In this document: positions 4,149-20,170 of the stretch, one piece after another
Layout of the letters: every line of letters starts with the position of its first letter
How positions within the stretch are numbered: position 1 is the first letter of the stretch
DNA from: a virus
Direction: 5' to 3' (one strand)
IMG/VR virus record: IMGVR_UViG_3300036768_001045
Span: 1 to 22,914 of that record
Length of the DNA stretch: 22,914 nt
The notes under the pieces: generated by a model
What the model was told of the DNA's origin: nothing
Database searches by the model: none
What the model saw: the letters and a program-made list of their open reading frames with translations, nothing else
Program-made: the position numbers and the translations under genes

Positions 4149-4496
4149 ATGTCGTTCCGCGATTCGTTACGCGAGCATGCCGGTCGCCTCGGGCTCCGAG
4201 AGATCGCCGGGCTCGCTGGCACGTCGAAAGCCGAGGCCCGCGAGGCGCTAGCCGACCCGGCCGTGCGGAGAGAGTACGAGGCTGCCCGGGCACGCTACAT
4301 CGACGGGCTCGTGCAGCAGCTCGAACGGGCCGCGCGTGGGGGCAACCTGCGGGCCGTGCGCGAGCTAATCCGCTTCGCCCGTGGCATCGAGCGGCGCGCA
4401 CCAAGGCGCGAGCGCAAGCGTGTCCGGCAAGATGTACCCGCCTCGCTCAGGGAGTGGCCGCGTGCAGTCGTACTCCCAGGCCGACGGCGCACCTGA
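4149..4496 (+). CDS. terS: Putative terminase small subunit
   Basis: A 115-residue, mostly helical, basic protein directly upstream of and overlapping the large terminase. Residues 12-40 (GRLGLREIAGLAGTSKAEAREALADP) look like a helix-turn-helix, followed by VRREYEAARARYIDGLVQQLERAARGGNLRAVRELIRFARG, a helical oligomerisation segment like that of small terminases. The tail is Arg-rich. This protein would recognise the packaging site and load the large subunit. The ATG has no ribosome site, only CGGGC before it, so translation may be leaderless or the message may begin very close. The assignment depends mainly on position and the helix-turn-helix; another DNA-binding protein cannot be ruled out. 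Confidence 0.6.
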   Translation: MSFRDSLREHAGRLGLREIAGLAGTSKAEAREALADPAVRREYEAARARYIDGLVQQLERAARGGNLRAVRELIRFARGIERRAPRRERKRVRQDVPASLREWPRAVVLPGRRRT

Positions 4497-5808
4497 GGCT
4501 GAGTTTCGCGTCCCGCTCCGGTCGGCACGCGAGCTCCGCCGCTACATGGAGCATGCCTGGGGCGTGCGCCTTGGTGCTCGTGCGGCCTGCCCGCACCACA
4601 CAGCGCCATTAGCGGTCGCATGGGACGCATACCGCGCCACACACCCGGTCATCATCGTGCGCGGGGCGAGGGGCACGGGCAAGACCTATATGGTCGCCGG
4701 GCTCGGGCTCACGATGGCCACCACGCTCGGGGCGTCGGTCACGATCCTCGGCGGCTCCGGTGAGCAGAGCAACCGCGTCCATGACCACATGCGCCGGATG
4801 TGGCTCCACTCGACGGCGCCCGTCGACATGCTGCTTGACGAGCCGACGCATCGTGTGACGAGACTCATCACGGGCGCCACCATCACCGCACTGCTCGCAT
4901 CGTCGCGGAGCGTGCGCGGCCCGCATCCCGAGCGGCTGATCCTCGACGAGGCGGACGAAATCGACGTCGATTTGATCGATGCGGCCCTGGGGCAGCCACA
5001 ATCTCGTGGGCCGATACGTGCGGGTGTGCTGGCGGTATCCACGGAGCACCGCACCGATGGCGGCATGGCGTATCTGCGGCGACTCGCCCAGGACCGCGGC
5101 TGGCCGGTCGTCGAGTGGTGCTGGCGGGATGTGATGTATCCCCACGGGTGGATGCGGCGCGAGCAGCTCGAACGGGTACGGGCGACGGTGCCCGAGAGTG
5201 TCTGGCGCGTGGAGTACGAAATGGGGCAGGTCGTGGCGCGGAATGCCGCGATCGACCCGGAGGTGCTCGCAAGCGTGCTCGATGGGCCCGAGGTCCGGGA
5301 CATGGGGCGGGAGATCGAGGTCGAGCAGCCCGAGAGCTCGGGGCAATACGCCTGCGGCGTGGACTGGGCGCGAAGCGAGCATGCGACCGTCGCAGTCGTG
5401 ATCCGATGCGACGTGCGACCGCGGCGGGTCGTGGCCTATCTCCGGATGCGAAGGCAGCCCTGGGCGAGACAGGTCGAGCGCGTGGCCGAGCTCGCGACAC
5501 GATACCGCGCCCGGGTGTGGCATGATGCCACAGGCCTCGGCGACGTGGTGCATTCGCTGCTCGTGGTGCCCGCCGTGCCCATTGTCTGGGCCCCGAAAAC
5601 ACGCGAGCGGCTCATCACGGGGTATGTGCGCGCATTGGAGACGCGGGCGCTACTGTTGCCGCGCATCGACACGCTCGTTTCTGAGCATACGCAAGCTACG
5701 TGGGACGACCTGTGGGGCCGTGGCCACCTGCCCGACTCGCTCGCCGCCTGCGCGATGGCCTGGTACGGGGCTGAGCGCGTGCGCGGCGTGGGCGGCATCT
5801 ATGTGTGA
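4462..5808 (+). CDS. terL: Terminase large subunit (packaging ATPase and nuclease)
   Basis: Powers DNA packaging and cuts the concatemer. Counting from the GTG chosen here, the N-terminal ATPase has Walker A GARGTGKT (68-75), a coupling segment near SRSVRGPHPE, and Walker B RLILDEAD (158-165). The C-terminal RNase H-like nuclease shows an aspartate in CGVDWARSEHATVAVV (Asp301), one in VWHDATGLGD, and the last in LPDSLAACAMAW. Length of 448 residues is normal. Three in-frame starts are possible: GTG at 4381 and ATG at 4432, both without a ribosome site, and GTG at 4462 with AGGGAG seven bases upstream. The last is the best and leaves a 35-base overlap with the small subunit gene. It runs opposite to the portal, which is unusual for this module. 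Confidence 0.93.
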   Translation: MQSYSQADGAPEAEFRVPLRSARELRRYMEHAWGVRLGARAACPHHTAPLAVAWDAYRATHPVIIVRGARGTGKTYMVAGLGLTMATTLGASVTILGGSGEQSNRVHDHMRRMWLHSTAPVDMLLDEPTHRVTRLITGATITALLASSRSVRGPHPERLILDEADEIDVDLIDAALGQPQSRGPIRAGVLAVSTEHRTDGGMAYLRRLAQDRGWPVVEWCWRDVMYPHGWMRREQLERVRATVPESVWRVEYEMGQVVARNAAIDPEVLASVLDGPEVRDMGREIEVEQPESSGQYACGVDWARSEHATVAVVIRCDVRPRRVVAYLRMRRQPWARQVERVAELATRYRARVWHDATGLGDVVHSLLVVPAVPIVWAPKTRERLITGYVRALETRALLLPRIDTLVSEHTQATWDDLWGRGHLPDSLAACAMAWYGAERVRGVGGIYV

Positions 5809-5830
5809 TCCGGCTCCTCTAGGAGGGAGT

Positions 5831-5862
5831 GGGGCCGGCGGAAAGGAGTAAACGCCGGCCCC
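5831..5862 (+). other. Strong stem-loop after the large terminase, purine-rich loop
   Basis: GGGGCCGGC and GCCGGCCCC form a perfect 9-bp stem around a 14-base loop that contains AAAGGAG, a ribosome-site-like sequence. There is no T tract, so it is not a normal terminator. It begins 22 bases after the terminase stop. It may protect the 3' end of the terminase message or act in regulation. A second AGGAGG follows six bases later without a good start codon. Confidence 0.4.
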
Positions 5863-5939
5863 GAGGCAGGAGGTTGGTGAACGGGCACTGTCTGTCTGTC
5901 ACATCGTGCTGCGATTGTCAAGTATCGCGGCGCGAGCCC

Positions 5940-5968
5940 TTGACGCGAGCAGCGGAAACCCGTATTTA
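5940..5968 (+). promoter_or_regulatory. Promoter of small-RNA cassette 1
   Basis: TTGACG and TATTTA with a spacer of exactly 17 bases, a good match to the sigma-70 consensus. It lies about 130 bases after the terminase stop. No plus-strand gene follows before the terminator 46 bases downstream of the -10 box. Confidence 0.6.
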
Positions 5969-5974
5969 TTCCCG

Positions 5975-6054
5975 CGATAGGAGCCTGGGCCGGAGTTCCC
6001 TGGGCACTCTTTCGCCCCCGTGGTGACCGCCATCACCAACGGGGGCTTCTTTTT
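5975..6054 (+). ncRNA. Putative small RNA 1 (about 80 nt)
   Basis: The ends are inferred from the promoter (start about seven bases after the -10 box) and the T tract. The short body can fold: GAG...CTC outside and CCTGGG with CCCTGG inside, with one U-U mismatch, around the loop CCGGAGTT. The terminator hairpin follows directly. There is no start codon with a ribosome site inside it. It is the first of three cassettes with the same layout and close to equal spacing, which is the main argument that it is a real transcript and not chance. No known RNA family was recognised. Confidence 0.5.
6014..6054 (+). terminator. Intrinsic terminator of cassette 1
   Basis: GCCCCCGT pairs with ACGGGGGC and GGTGA with TCACC, separated by a one-base bulge, around the loop CCGCCA. 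TTCTTTTT follows at once. This is a strong rho-independent terminator on the plus strand. Confidence 0.85.
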
Positions 6055-6088
6055 ACGCCTTCAGCCGCCGTGGAACCGCGCGCAAATG

Positions 6089-6117
6089 TTGACTTTTGGG
6101 TTCGCGTTCGGTATTAA
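6089..6117 (+). promoter_or_regulatory. Promoter of small-RNA cassette 2
   Basis: TTGACT and TATTAA with a 17-base spacer. The -35 box is 149 bases after that of cassette 1. The next terminator is only 44 bases past the -10 box. Confidence 0.65.
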
Positions 6118-6123
6118 GACGCG

Positions 6124-6201
6124 CTGAAGGCATGTGATGGGCAATCATGAAGCCTTCTTTGCCCCTGTGGCTGCCGCCAACAGCTACAGGGGCTTTTCTT
6201 T
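6124..6201 (+). ncRNA. Putative small RNA 2 (about 77 nt)
   Basis: The predicted transcript starts almost directly with a strong hairpin: GAAGGC (6126-6131) pairs with GCCTTC (6152-6157), and inside it CATGTGAT pairs with ATCATG with one bulged base, closing on a GGGCA loop. TTT and the terminator hairpin follow. The whole RNA is thus two consecutive hairpins with almost no single-stranded coding space. The layout equals cassettes 1 and 3 but the primary sequence differs. The ends are inferred, not measured. Confidence 0.55.
6161..6201 (+). terminator. Intrinsic terminator of cassette 2
   Basis: GCCCCTGT pairs with ACAGGGGC and GCTG with CAGC around the loop CCGCCAA, then TTTTCTTT. The loop and inner stem resemble those of terminator 1 (GTGG-TG-CCGCCA in both), suggesting common descent. 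Confidence 0.85.
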
Positions 6202-6231
6202 GCGGGCGGCGGTTTTCTCCCGCCTGCGGCC

Positions 6232-6260
6232 TTGACATACGCCGCGTGCTGGTGTACATG
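6232..6260 (+). promoter_or_regulatory. Promoter of small-RNA cassette 3
   Basis: A perfect TTGACA -35 box, a 17-base spacer and TACATG as a weaker -10 box. The -35 box is 143 bases after that of cassette 2, close to the 149 bases between cassettes 1 and 2. Confidence 0.55.
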
Positions 6261-6266
6261 CTCCGC

Positions 6267-6348
6267 ATCTTCCGCTGCGGACCTTGCGGTCCCCGTGGGA
6301 GTTCTTCCATTGCCCCCCGCGGTTTCGGCCGCGGGGGTTCTCCTTTTT
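6267..6348 (+). ncRNA. Putative small RNA 3 (about 80 nt)
   Basis: Around the start, CCGCA and TGCGG can pair around TCTTCCGC. Next comes GGACC-TTGC-GGTCC, a perfect 5-bp hairpin. CTCC and GGGAG near the ends of this segment can close a small multi-branched fold. The terminator follows after TTCTTCCATT. No ribosome site with a start codon is present. Ends are inferred from promoter and terminator positions. Confidence 0.5.
6313..6348 (+). terminator. Intrinsic terminator of cassette 3
   Basis: CCCCCGCGG and CCGCGGGGG form a perfect 9-bp stem with the loop TTTCGG, followed by TTCTCCTTTTT. Confidence 0.8.
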
Positions 6349-6350
6349 GG

Positions 6351-6405
6351 GCCTCGGCAACTTCACTTCCACGACTTCTCCTAGGGGAGAAGTGAAGTTC
6401 GAGGC
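6351..6405. repeat. Two mutually exclusive hairpins
   Basis: Large form: GCCTCG (6351-6356) with CGAGGC (6400-6405) and AACTTCACTTC (6359-6369) with GAAGTGAAGTT (6389-6399), 17 pairs with a two-base bulge. Small form: ACTTCTCC-TAGG-GGAGAAGT (6374-6393), 8 pairs. Both use GAAGT at 6389-6393, so only one can form at a time. There is no T tract on either side. Confidence 0.6.
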
Positions 6406-6438
6406 GAGTCGCCAGAGCGCCCCAGGGCTCGCCCCGAA

Positions 6439-6468
6439 TGGTAGCACGATGGTAGCAGCGTGGTAGCA
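6439..6468 (+). repeat. Three tandem TGGTAGCA repeats, 11-bp period
   Basis: TGGTAGCA begins at 6439, 6450 and 6461, an exact 11-bp period, so all copies face one side of the helix. This is a typical layout for protein-binding iterons or recombinase arm sites. No integrase was recognised in the window. The stretch lies in a region without protein genes. Confidence 0.55.
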
Positions 6469-6505
6469 GACTCCCGTAACCCGTTGAACTGCCGCCGGTT
6501 TGTCT

Positions 6506-6604
6506 GGCTACCCCAGGATTTTATGTCTTGGGGTCAAGCCGCGATCGTCGTCCTAGTGCATTTTCGATCGGGCCACGCGCGCTCCCGGTCGCGTAGATGC
6601 ACTA
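6506..6604. repeat. Two further dyads at the 3' side of the replication operon
   Basis: First dyad, 6506-6540: GGCT...AGCC outside and CCCCAGGA with TCTTGGGG inside (one G-U pair). Second dyad, 6554-6604: TAGTGCAT with ATGCACTA outside and CGATCGGG with CCCGGTCG inside (one G-U pair), loop CCACGCGCGCT. They lie just past the stop of the leftward helicase-loader-like gene but have no T tract in that direction. AGTGCATTT occurs again at 6616. From 6406 to 6630 I see no protein gene. Confidence 0.5.
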
Positions 6605-6630
6605 CGGCGATGTCCAGTGCATTTGCAGGC

Positions 6631-7170
6631 CTAGTTCCCGCGCTCCTCGTCGTCCGGCATCGGCCTGCCGAGCCGGTACGCAAGCCGCTGCAGGGCGCCG
6701 AGTATCTCCTGGCGGTCCTCGTCGCTCGGGCCGGGTGGTGGCAGCTGTGGCGCGCTTGGCTCCAGCTCGATCCACTCGCACCGGATGCGGCCCTCGACCA
6801 GAGCCTCGGCCACCAGGCGGTCGTAACAGCGCCGGAACGTGCGGTAGAGCTCATCATCACGCAGCCGCGTGCCCTCGGCGAGGCCCAGCGCCTGGAGGGC
6901 GAGTGATGGCATGCGTTTGCCGCGCCTTGCAAGGTCCCAGGCCTCCTCCGGCCCGGGCCAGGCGTCGTCGAGCGCCCGCACGATCGCGATCCAGGACACC
7001 CGCTCGCCTCGTGCTGCGATGCGGGTGATGGCATTACGCAGCTCCAGTGGTCCGAGCCCATACGGGGCGAGTTGGGCGCCGATGAGGACCGCGGTCTGCC
7101 GCTCGATCTGGAGGCCGTGGAACGACGCCGCGGCCATAATTGCGTCAGCTAGCGTGTCTACCGTTGCCAT
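6631..7170 (-). CDS. Putative replicative helicase loader
   Basis: This 179-residue protein follows the initiator-like gene, as lambda P follows O. The N-terminal half is helical with a winged-helix-like start (TLADAIMAAASFHGLQIERQTAVLIGAQLAPYGLGPLELRNAITRIA). The block PGPEEAWDLA followed by DDELYRTFRRCYDRLVAEA resembles phage proteins with the pattern 'PgPEEAWa ... a...fre.YerLv', which often sit beside initiator or DnaB genes. The C-terminus is Pro-rich then helical. I found no ATPase motif, so it is not a DnaC-type AAA loader. AGGAGGT lies before the ATG, and the start overlaps the initiator gene by 26 bases. The role is inferred from context and a remembered pattern, so it is moderate at best. 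Confidence 0.65.
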   Translation of the reverse strand: MATVDTLADAIMAAASFHGLQIERQTAVLIGAQLAPYGLGPLELRNAITRIAARGERVSWIAIVRALDDAWPGPEEAWDLARRGKRMPSLALQALGLAEGTRLRDDELYRTFRRCYDRLVAEALVEGRIRCEWIELEPSAPQLPPPGPSDEDRQEILGALQRLAYRLGRPMPDDEERGN

Positions 7171-13846: not shown

Positions 13847-14605
13847 CTACTGCACCACCACGGTCGGCATCGGCGCGACCCGGATCTGCCTGGGTGGTGG
13901 CACATCGACCCGACGCGGCCCGGGCACGATGATGATCGCCCGCGGTGTGCCCTCAGCCGGTGGCCTCGTGGGCGTGATGGTGCGCGTGGGTGTATGCGTC
14001 GGTGGGTGTGTCGGCGTAAATGTCGCAGTGCGAGTCGGAGTCGCGGTCGGCGTATGTGTCGCAGTGCGAGTTGGTGTATCGGTCGGTGTGGGCGTAGCCG
14101 TGGCGGTGGGCGTGAACGTTGGCGTGGCGGTCGGTGTCGCGGTCGGGGTGTGTGTCGGCGTCTCGGTGACCGTCGGTGTGTGAGTCACCGTCGGCGTGTG
14201 AGTGGGTGTATTCGTCACCGTTGGTGTGTGCGTTGGCGTGTTCGTGACCGTCGGGGTGTTCGTAGGTGTCGGAGTGTGCGTCGGCGTGTGGGTCACCGTC
14301 GGAGTGTTGGTCACGGTGGGCGTGTGAGTCGGGGTGTTGGTGATCGTCGGCGTCGGGGTACGGGTCGGCGTGTTCGTCGGCGTCGGAGTGCGAGTTGGCG
14401 TCCCCGTCGGCGTACTAGTCGGAGTCTCTGTCGGCGTCGGCGTAGGCGTTGGCGTGGGCGTGCTCGTCGGTGTCGGCGTCGGCACGCCAAACCATAGCTG
14501 GCGAGGATACGCGCCGACGGTGCTCGGGCGCGCAACGAATACATAAATCGCCAGCGCGATGATAACGGAGAGCGATATGTGCGATATCCAGAGTGCCCGC
14601 TTCAA
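13847..14605 (-). CDS. Membrane-anchored Thr-Pro stalk protein
   Basis: A 252-residue protein. Residues 1-25 form a signal anchor ([20 protein letters not shown]). From residue 42 to about 212 the chain is almost only Thr-Pro in units such as TPTNTPT, TPTHTPT, TPTVTNT, a mucin-like rod likely to be extended and possibly glycosylated. The last 40 residues ([30 protein letters not shown]) are Pro/Val-rich and may be an interaction tip. The start is an unusual TTG, seven bases after GAGGAG; the nearby ATG belongs to another frame. It is the last gene of the late unit. Shorter Thr-Pro linkers occur in two genes upstream, so these proteins form a set. Exact function unknown. Confidence 0.8.
13970..14482 (-). 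repeat. Degenerate 6/12-bp coding repeat for the Thr-Pro rod
   Basis: About 85 units of ACN-CCN with substitutions at every second or fourth residue (Asn, His, Val, Ala, Glu, Arg). Such tracts change length easily by slippage or recombination, so rod length may vary between phages. Confidence 0.8.
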
Positions 14606-18841: not shown

Positions 18842-20170
18842 TCATGGCAAACCATCACAGCCGCACGCCACATACGCGCGGCGGATGTATTCGCACGAAT
18901 CCGCTGGACACCTGGCTAGGGCCGGCGTCGGTGAAGCCTCGGGCGTCGCCGTGTGCGTCCACGTCGCCGTAGCCCGCGCGGTCGCGGTGGCCGTGTTCCG
19001 CGCCGTGGCCGTAGGCGTGGGCTCCGGCGCAATCGCCGCACTCCACGCGGCCTGCCCGAGCACATCGAGCACCCAGGCGCGCGTGGCGGACATGGCTACG
19101 CGTCGCACCTGCGAGCCGCCAGGATACCCGCGCACTACGTCGCGGACCACGAGCTGCTGGTCAAGCACGTAGAGGTCACTACCGGACAGCAGTGCCACCC
19201 GTCCAGCACGCGACTCGACCGCCGGAGCCTGCAGCGCCCGCCCACGGATCGAGGCACCGACTGCTGGTGCGTCGCCACTCCACCCGGTGAGCCGCTCGGC
19301 ACCTGCAGCGCCGTAGGTCCAGAGCGCGCCCCGTCCGTAGCAGACCGTGTCAGCCAGGAGATAGCCGCCATCATAGACCGCGATGCTGCTTGCGAGCGGG
19401 AGCCGCGTGGTGGACGTGTCACACGTGTGCATCCCATCTCCCGCGATGCGCGCGGCCGCGCCGGTATCCGAGATCGAGTAGATCGCGGCGTAGTCGACCA
19501 CAATCCGATCAAGCAGCGCCTGCGGCTGATTGAGACCCGCGACGCGTACGTCGGAGTCGATGCCCTCCAGGTCGCGGAGCATGGTCATTGTCCCGCACCG
19601 CGCGAGCACCCGCCGCCTGCCGGCGTGCATCGAGAGCCAGCCGGAGCACCCCGCGCCCTGCTGCTCCGATACAACGCGCGTCACCAGTGTCGTAGTCCGG
19701 CCCGACACGCGCCACACGGCGAGCGAGCCGCGTTGCTGGGCATCGAGCCCGTACGTCGACAGCGCGTACAGTGTGCCCTCGGCATCGACCGCGATGCCGG
19801 TCACGCGGCCCGAGACGGCAGCGCCGTCCACGCCGCCGATGTCCTGCCGCCACTGGGCGGTCGCAGCACAAGCCAGGAGCAGCATCAGCATTGGTAGGAG
19901 CGTCTCGATCGGTTTGCGCGCGCCACGTGGCCAGTAGTGCAACACCGCGCGCCACGGCCCGCCCAGCGCGCGCGCAAGCTCTGCGGCCCGCGTGGCCCGC
20001 CGCCGTGCACGCCCGCTCTTCACTTCGACGAGCAGCGCGTCGCCAGGCCGGATCGCAACGATGTCGGCAGGCCCCTTCGAGCCCGCCGCGCGAAAGCACG
20101 TGTAGCCGCACGCTCGCAGATACTCGATGCTTCGCCGCTCGTAGTATACGCCACGCCGATAGTTGGTCAT
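18842..20170 (-). CDS. Holliday-junction-resolvase-like nuclease fused to an exported beta-propeller-like protein
   Basis: One uninterrupted 442-residue frame with two unlike parts. Residues 1-90: MTNYRRGVYYERRSIEYLRA, AAGSKGPADIVAI and LLVEVKSGR give Glu11, Asp36, Glu49-x-Lys51, the Hjc/VRR-type PD-(D/E)XK core, ending where such proteins normally end. Residues 93-106: LPMLMLLLACAATAQ, exactly like a signal peptide. Residues 107-390: repeated strands such as GRVTGIAVDAEGTLYALSTYG and ASSIAVYDGGYLLADTVCYG, consistent with a beta-propeller. Then a Thr/Pro/Ala linker and a Cys-rich end (ARCPADSCEYIRRAYVACGC). GAGGTGAG precedes the first ATG. A second start at 19891 would give the exported part alone but has no good ribosome site. 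A lost stop codon between two genes is an alternative. Confidence 0.75.
   Translation of the reverse strand: MTNYRRGVYYERRSIEYLRACGYTCFRAAGSKGPADIVAIRPGDALLVEVKSGRARRRATRAAELARALGGPWRAVLHYWPRGARKPIETLLPMLMLLLACAATAQWRQDIGGVDGAAVSGRVTGIAVDAEGTLYALSTYGLDAQQRGSLAVWRVSGRTTTLVTRVVSEQQGAGCSGWLSMHAGRRRVLARCGTMTMLRDLEGIDSDVRVAGLNQPQALLDRIVVDYAAIYSISDTGAAARIAGDGMHTCDTSTTRLPLASSIAVYDGGYLLADTVCYGRGALWTYGAAGAERLTGWSGDAPAVGASIRGRALQAPAVESRAGRVALLSGSDLYVLDQQLVVRDVVRGYPGGSQVRRVAMSATRAWVLDVLGQAAWSAAIAPEPTPTATARNTATATARATATWTHTATPEASPTPALARCPADSCEYIRRAYVACGCDGLP

Follow-up and report, generated by a model that had tools for sequence, protein, structure and literature searches.

The convergent gap behind the terminase gene

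The window, that is, the whole stretch of DNA analysed here, covers the entire 22,914-base virus record IMGVR_UViG_3300036768_001045 of an uncultured phage of ~34 kb. Among its products are a portal, a MuF-like head protein, a prohead protease, a large terminase, a Cas4-type exonuclease and an endolysin. The minus-strand ORF at 13847-14605 consists largely of Thr-Pro repeats (TPTPTPT) and varies in length among relatives. Another minus-strand ORF (18842-20170) shows an N-terminal match to Hjc (PF01870), a family of archaeal Holliday-junction resolvases, and continues with a long unrelated region.

Between the terminase operon on the plus strand and a converging operon on the minus strand lies a gap (5809-6630). 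A preliminary description of this DNA had placed the site in such a convergent setting, and correctly so: the terminase gene (terL) ends at 5808, and the next three ORFs (7170-6631, 8296-7145 and 8955-8293) are all read from the minus strand. Three tandem cassettes, each composed of a promoter, a short body and an intrinsic terminator, adjoin terL in this gap at the positions given in that description (Table 1). All three promoters point toward the minus-strand operon, and downstream of them there is no plus-strand gene to serve.

Table 1. Genes, promoters, predicted RNAs and terminators at the locus (window positions)
Feature	Position	Strand	Details
Large terminase subunit gene (terL)	4381..5808	+	phrog_2, phrog_9; start codon uncertain; upstream of cassettes
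Cassette 1 promoter	5940..5968	+	-35 TTGACG (5940-5945), 17 nt, -10 TATTTA (5963-5968)
Predicted RNA 1	5975..6053	+	~79 nt; start predicted ~7 nt past the -10 box
Intrinsic terminator 1	6014..6054	+	stem 6014-6046, T tail
Cassette 2 promoter	6089..6117	+	-35 TTGACT (6089-6094), 17 nt, -10 TATTAA (6112-6117)
Predicted RNA 2	6121..6201	+	~78-80 nt; hairpin GAAGGC..GCCTTC, then terminator; predicted start ~6124
Intrinsic terminator 2	6161..6201	+	stem 6161-6193, T tail
Cassette 3 promoter	6232..6260	+	-35 TTGACA (6232-6237), 17 nt, -10 TACATG (6255-6260)
Predicted RNA 3	6267..6347	+	~81 nt
Intrinsic terminator 3	6314..6348	+	stem 6314-6337, T-rich tail
Gene without assigned function, converging on cassettes	6631..7170	-	last in a minus-strand run of three

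Anatomy of the cassettes and chance tests

The preliminary description is exact in its promoter hexamers, its 17-nt spacers and its distances of 149 and 143 bases between the -35 boxes (5940, 6089, 6232), and it is also right in placing a strong hairpin with a T tract behind each promoter. The terminator stems begin 45, 43 and 53 nt past the -10 box in cassettes 1, 2 and 3, respectively; their dG values are about -24, -25.5 and -22 kcal/mol, and each is followed by a T-rich tail. By E. coli standards the cassette promoters have weak -10 boxes: a generic promoter scanner, which requires T at the final -10 base, leaves all three unlisted.

The pattern TTGAC-N17..19-TAY occurs three times on the two strands of the window, each time within 5940-6260, against a shuffle mean of 1.0. 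In 300 shuffles that preserved the dinucleotide composition of the window, promoter-terminator cassettes appeared three times in total, and no single shuffle contained two. This test is conservative, because the strict stem rule of the shuffle script detected only terminators 2 and 3 and thus missed the real terminator 1. The pairing of promoters with terminators in the gap is not a product of chance.

Relatives of the phage and variation of the gap

A TerL search retrieved just three other viral contigs, which represent two relatives, A and B, and no relative in GTDB genomes. Each relative is ~34 kb long and ~86% identical to the window across the head genes. The 68-kb contig IMGVR_UViG_3300036768_000756 carries A and B head to tail, i.e., two different ~34 kb phages that are ~86% alike; it is either a chimeric assembly or a pair of tandem prophages. 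The remaining two contigs match parts of A and of B identically or nearly so.

In relative A, cassette 2 is the sole cassette, and the minus-strand gene terminates directly behind it. Relative B has cassette 3 only, and the place of cassettes 1 and 2 is occupied by a small helix-turn-helix gene resembling excisionases and regulators (PF12728, phrog_66). Cassette 1 is absent from both, and its body was not found in other viral contigs; DNA matching against phage and plasmid collections gave no relative of any cassette. Thus, no cassette is common to the window phage, A and B, while each of them has at least one adjoining terL, and in all three the cassettes occur in the gap past terL only. Judging from these comparisons, related phages have probably acquired, lost and exchanged cassettes. 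Imperfect inverted repeats (5902-5940 / 6424-6451; 25/28 bases, 11-nt gap) lie on either side of the gap's variable part; their score was equalled in 1/1000 shuffles.

Several other features are found in the gap. Directly past terL (5831-5862) there is a perfect 10-bp hairpin, GGGGCCGGCG-GAAAGGAGTAAA-CGCCGGCCCC, without a T tail. It is identical in the window phage, A and B save one base, lies within 41 bases identical between the window and A, and was not found in other viral contigs; it may be a site for packaging or mark the end of an RNA. A long inverted repeat, AACTTCACTTC...GAAGTGAAGTT inside GCCTCG/CGAGGC (6352-6405), follows immediately past cassette 3 in the window phage only. Three TGGTAGCA repeats with 11-base spacing (6437-6470), iteron-like or arm-site-like, are kept in B and absent from A, and the same distribution is observed for three TAGTGCAT/ATGCACTA-like sites (6548-6625), which are possible operators.

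Conservation of the shared cassettes

In A, the promoter of cassette 2 reads TTGACT-17-TATTGA: both boxes are kept with one -10 base changed, and the spacer sequence is altered. The 53 bases at 6121-6173 are identical between the window and A, and this run starts near the predicted start of RNA 2. It is the second longest identical run among all alignments of the window with A, where the background identity is ~86%; 5 of 7329 53-nt windows are identical. Terminator 2 of A preserves its stem through one-sided changes that maintain pairing, and its loop is changed. In B, the promoter of cassette 3 (TTGACA-17-TATATG) retains both boxes; the 5' half of RNA 3 is common to the window and B, and the 3' half has diverged yet again forms a hairpin and a terminator.

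The comparison covers two relatives with one shared cassette each, cassette 1 being without a counterpart, and within it the RNA body is conserved above background for cassette 2 and in part for cassette 3. The preliminary description had proposed discrete transcription units for phage small RNAs and named the loss of promoters and terminators in related phages, with no compensatory changes, as evidence to the contrary. Such loss was not seen where a cassette is shared with A or B; the promoters and terminators kept in the two relatives and the invariant body 2 argue for the proposed units.

Relatedness, folding and coding capacity of the bodies

Similarity between the three bodies, taken without promoter and terminator, corresponds to z values of 1.3, 0.6 and -1.1, i.e., there is no relation among them, and terminators 1 and 2 are related (z 9.7). 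The earlier idea that the small RNAs form one family is not borne out, as the bodies share no sequence and the look of duplication is limited to these two terminators. Their common loop (CCGCCA) was correctly noted; the inner stem, also said to be common, has diverged, and it is the outer stem (GCCCC/GGGGC, GTGG) that they share.

The whole predicted RNAs 1, 2 and 3 fold better than their shuffles, with z values of -2.3, -4.1 and -3.9, to which the terminators contribute most. When the terminator is left out, body 1 folds no better than chance (z +0.7), and the values are z -1.2 to -1.6 for body 2 and z -2.2 for body 3; independent folding of each body, as originally claimed, therefore holds only weakly.

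GGA motifs are not common to all bodies, and a role as a CsrA decoy was rejected for this reason. Peptide coding is unlikely: the frame of RNA 2 is open through to the terminator with no stop before it, the differences in the frames of RNA 2 (window versus A) and RNA 3 are mostly replacements, and no reading frame conserved between the window and A or B was found in the cassettes.

Database searches

No Rfam family, including phi29 pRNA, reached its cut-off over the cassettes. With E up to 10, the best match was anti-hemB (RF02837), with E 0.01-0.02 over RNA 1 and a weaker match over RNA 3. This RNA is alike in having two hairpins plus a terminator in 81 nt, and its full-length matches score 21.4 bits (RNA 1) and 16.5 bits (RNA 3) against a cut-off of 49.5. 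Identity with anti-hemB was rejected, since these scores are far under the cut-off, the homologous cassette of B gives no such match, and the layout is generic. Rfam searches gave no riboswitch or leader match in the cassettes, nor any match to the CRISPR-repeat families that Rfam contains with E up to 10.

The 19-base core of RNA 2 had 12 matches in GTDB genomes, 11 of which lie inside open frames reading VMGNHE; these matches are protein coding and irrelevant to the cassettes. A search for antisense pairing within the phage, run without a shuffled control, returned short G+C-rich pairings only.

Possible function and alternative explanations

The gap is rather likely to be an accessory site carrying self-contained phage small-RNA genes, whose terminators would also end the terminase operon. 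In each cassette, a promoter of the host sigma-70 type could start an RNA of ~78-81 nt, which would comprise a body of ~40-50 nt and end at an intrinsic terminator. If made, these RNAs could have host or phage RNAs as their trans targets or bind a host protein; for RNA 2, loop contacts or protein binding are likelier than long antisense pairing, because little of its sequence is unpaired. The terminators probably also block terL read-through into the converging operon.

That last function could in principle be the only one. The cassettes would then do no more than terminate the terminase operon where it faces the converging one; the boxes resembling promoters would be fortuitous or weak, and short transcripts, if any, would have no role. 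The window phage, A and B each have at least one terminator between terL and the converging operon, and the generic scanner gives the cassette promoters no score, both of which fit this explanation. However, the strict promoter pattern sits within the window solely ahead of these terminators, the promoters are kept in A and B, and body 2 is invariant though the loop of terminator 2 varies. Terminators by themselves would require neither kept promoters nor an invariant body 2, and the explanation by terminators only is considered unlikely. Recombination modules similar to PeSLs, whose main effect would be modular gene exchange with the RNA incidental, could account for the gains and losses in the gap (one cassette in A, one plus the helix-turn-helix gene in B, three in the window phage) and for inverted repeats around its variable part of a quality seen once in 1000 shuffles. 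Yet the cassettes are confined to the gap in all three phages, they offer little homology, as sequence is shared mainly by terminators 1 and 2, and the invariance of body 2 is left unexplained, which makes this role improbable.

Attenuated leaders, in which a regulated terminator would permit some read-through antisense to the converging minus-strand operon, are suggested by the aim of every promoter into that operon and by the complementarity of the RNA 2 loop GGGCAA to TTGCCC in its own terminator arm. Six complementary bases are, however, unremarkable at such G+C content; three strong terminators stand in series, the terminator is strongly favoured in the predicted fold, and no match to a known riboswitch or leader was obtained, so that such regulation is very improbable. 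A packaging RNA partnering the adjacent terminase in the manner of phi29 pRNA had also been proposed, and the position of the cassettes next to terL in the window phage, A and B is in its favour. This role gained no support from the Rfam searches described above, and A and B share no cassette, therefore no single RNA can be needed for packaging; it is regarded as scarcely credible.

The reading as an accessory site for small-RNA genes could tentatively be taken further, though such an extension is rather speculative. The cassettes may be RNA-only morons, that is, self-contained promoter-sRNA-terminator units collected in tandem and traded at a fixed accessory site, with a separate host function or defence as the target of each RNA. 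Should the RNAs be produced, phage small RNAs will have been found in an uncultured lineage through anatomy and comparison alone, and the site would show that phages exchange RNA genes as accessory cargo in the way they exchange protein genes. The arrangement also supplies a search rule: a promoter-terminator distance of less than ~60 nt in a convergent gap where the promoter has no gene to drive.

Comparison with known systems

The PeSLs of T4-type phages, reportedly described by Arbiol in 2010 and Comeau in 2014, are small modules of a sigma-70 promoter and a terminator hairpin in plastic genome regions, with similar units recurring at several intergenic positions. The cassettes resemble them in joining a promoter to a terminator stem-loop. 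In contrast to PeSLs, they are limited to one gap in the window phage, A and B and are not repeated across the genome, their units are unlike one another, and they have a conserved RNA body separating the promoter from the terminator.

Racr RNA anti-CRISPRs are solitary repeat units in which a promoter is followed by a short hairpin RNA at a phage intergenic site (PMC10651486). Such RNAs mimic the CRISPR repeat of the host. The outline of the cassettes is similar (promoter, short hairpin RNA, intergenic position), but none of the Rfam CRISPR-repeat families matched them. AgvB and AsxR are short convergent sRNAs at a moron site of lambdoid prophages that were demonstrated to bind Hfq and to have anti-sRNA action (PMC4104026). 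Like the sRNAs predicted here, they are short, lie between convergent genes and occupy a site tolerating accessory insertions; they lie downstream of PR', whereas the cassettes lie after terL.

Phage sRNAs of 50-90 nt include lambda OOP (77 nt), PreS/LPR1 (~88 nt), StxS (74 nt) and P22 sar (68/69 nt) (PMC12197685). The RNAs predicted here are similar to these in length, in their phage intergenic site and in forming a compact hairpin RNA; no sequence relation to them was found, and the present ones are predicted as three in tandem. The general description of a phage-encoded sRNA gene, in which a short non-coding body is flanked by a promoter of its own and an intrinsic terminator, applies to the cassettes. 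Small phage RNAs are already a known kind, and these particular predicted ones are new.
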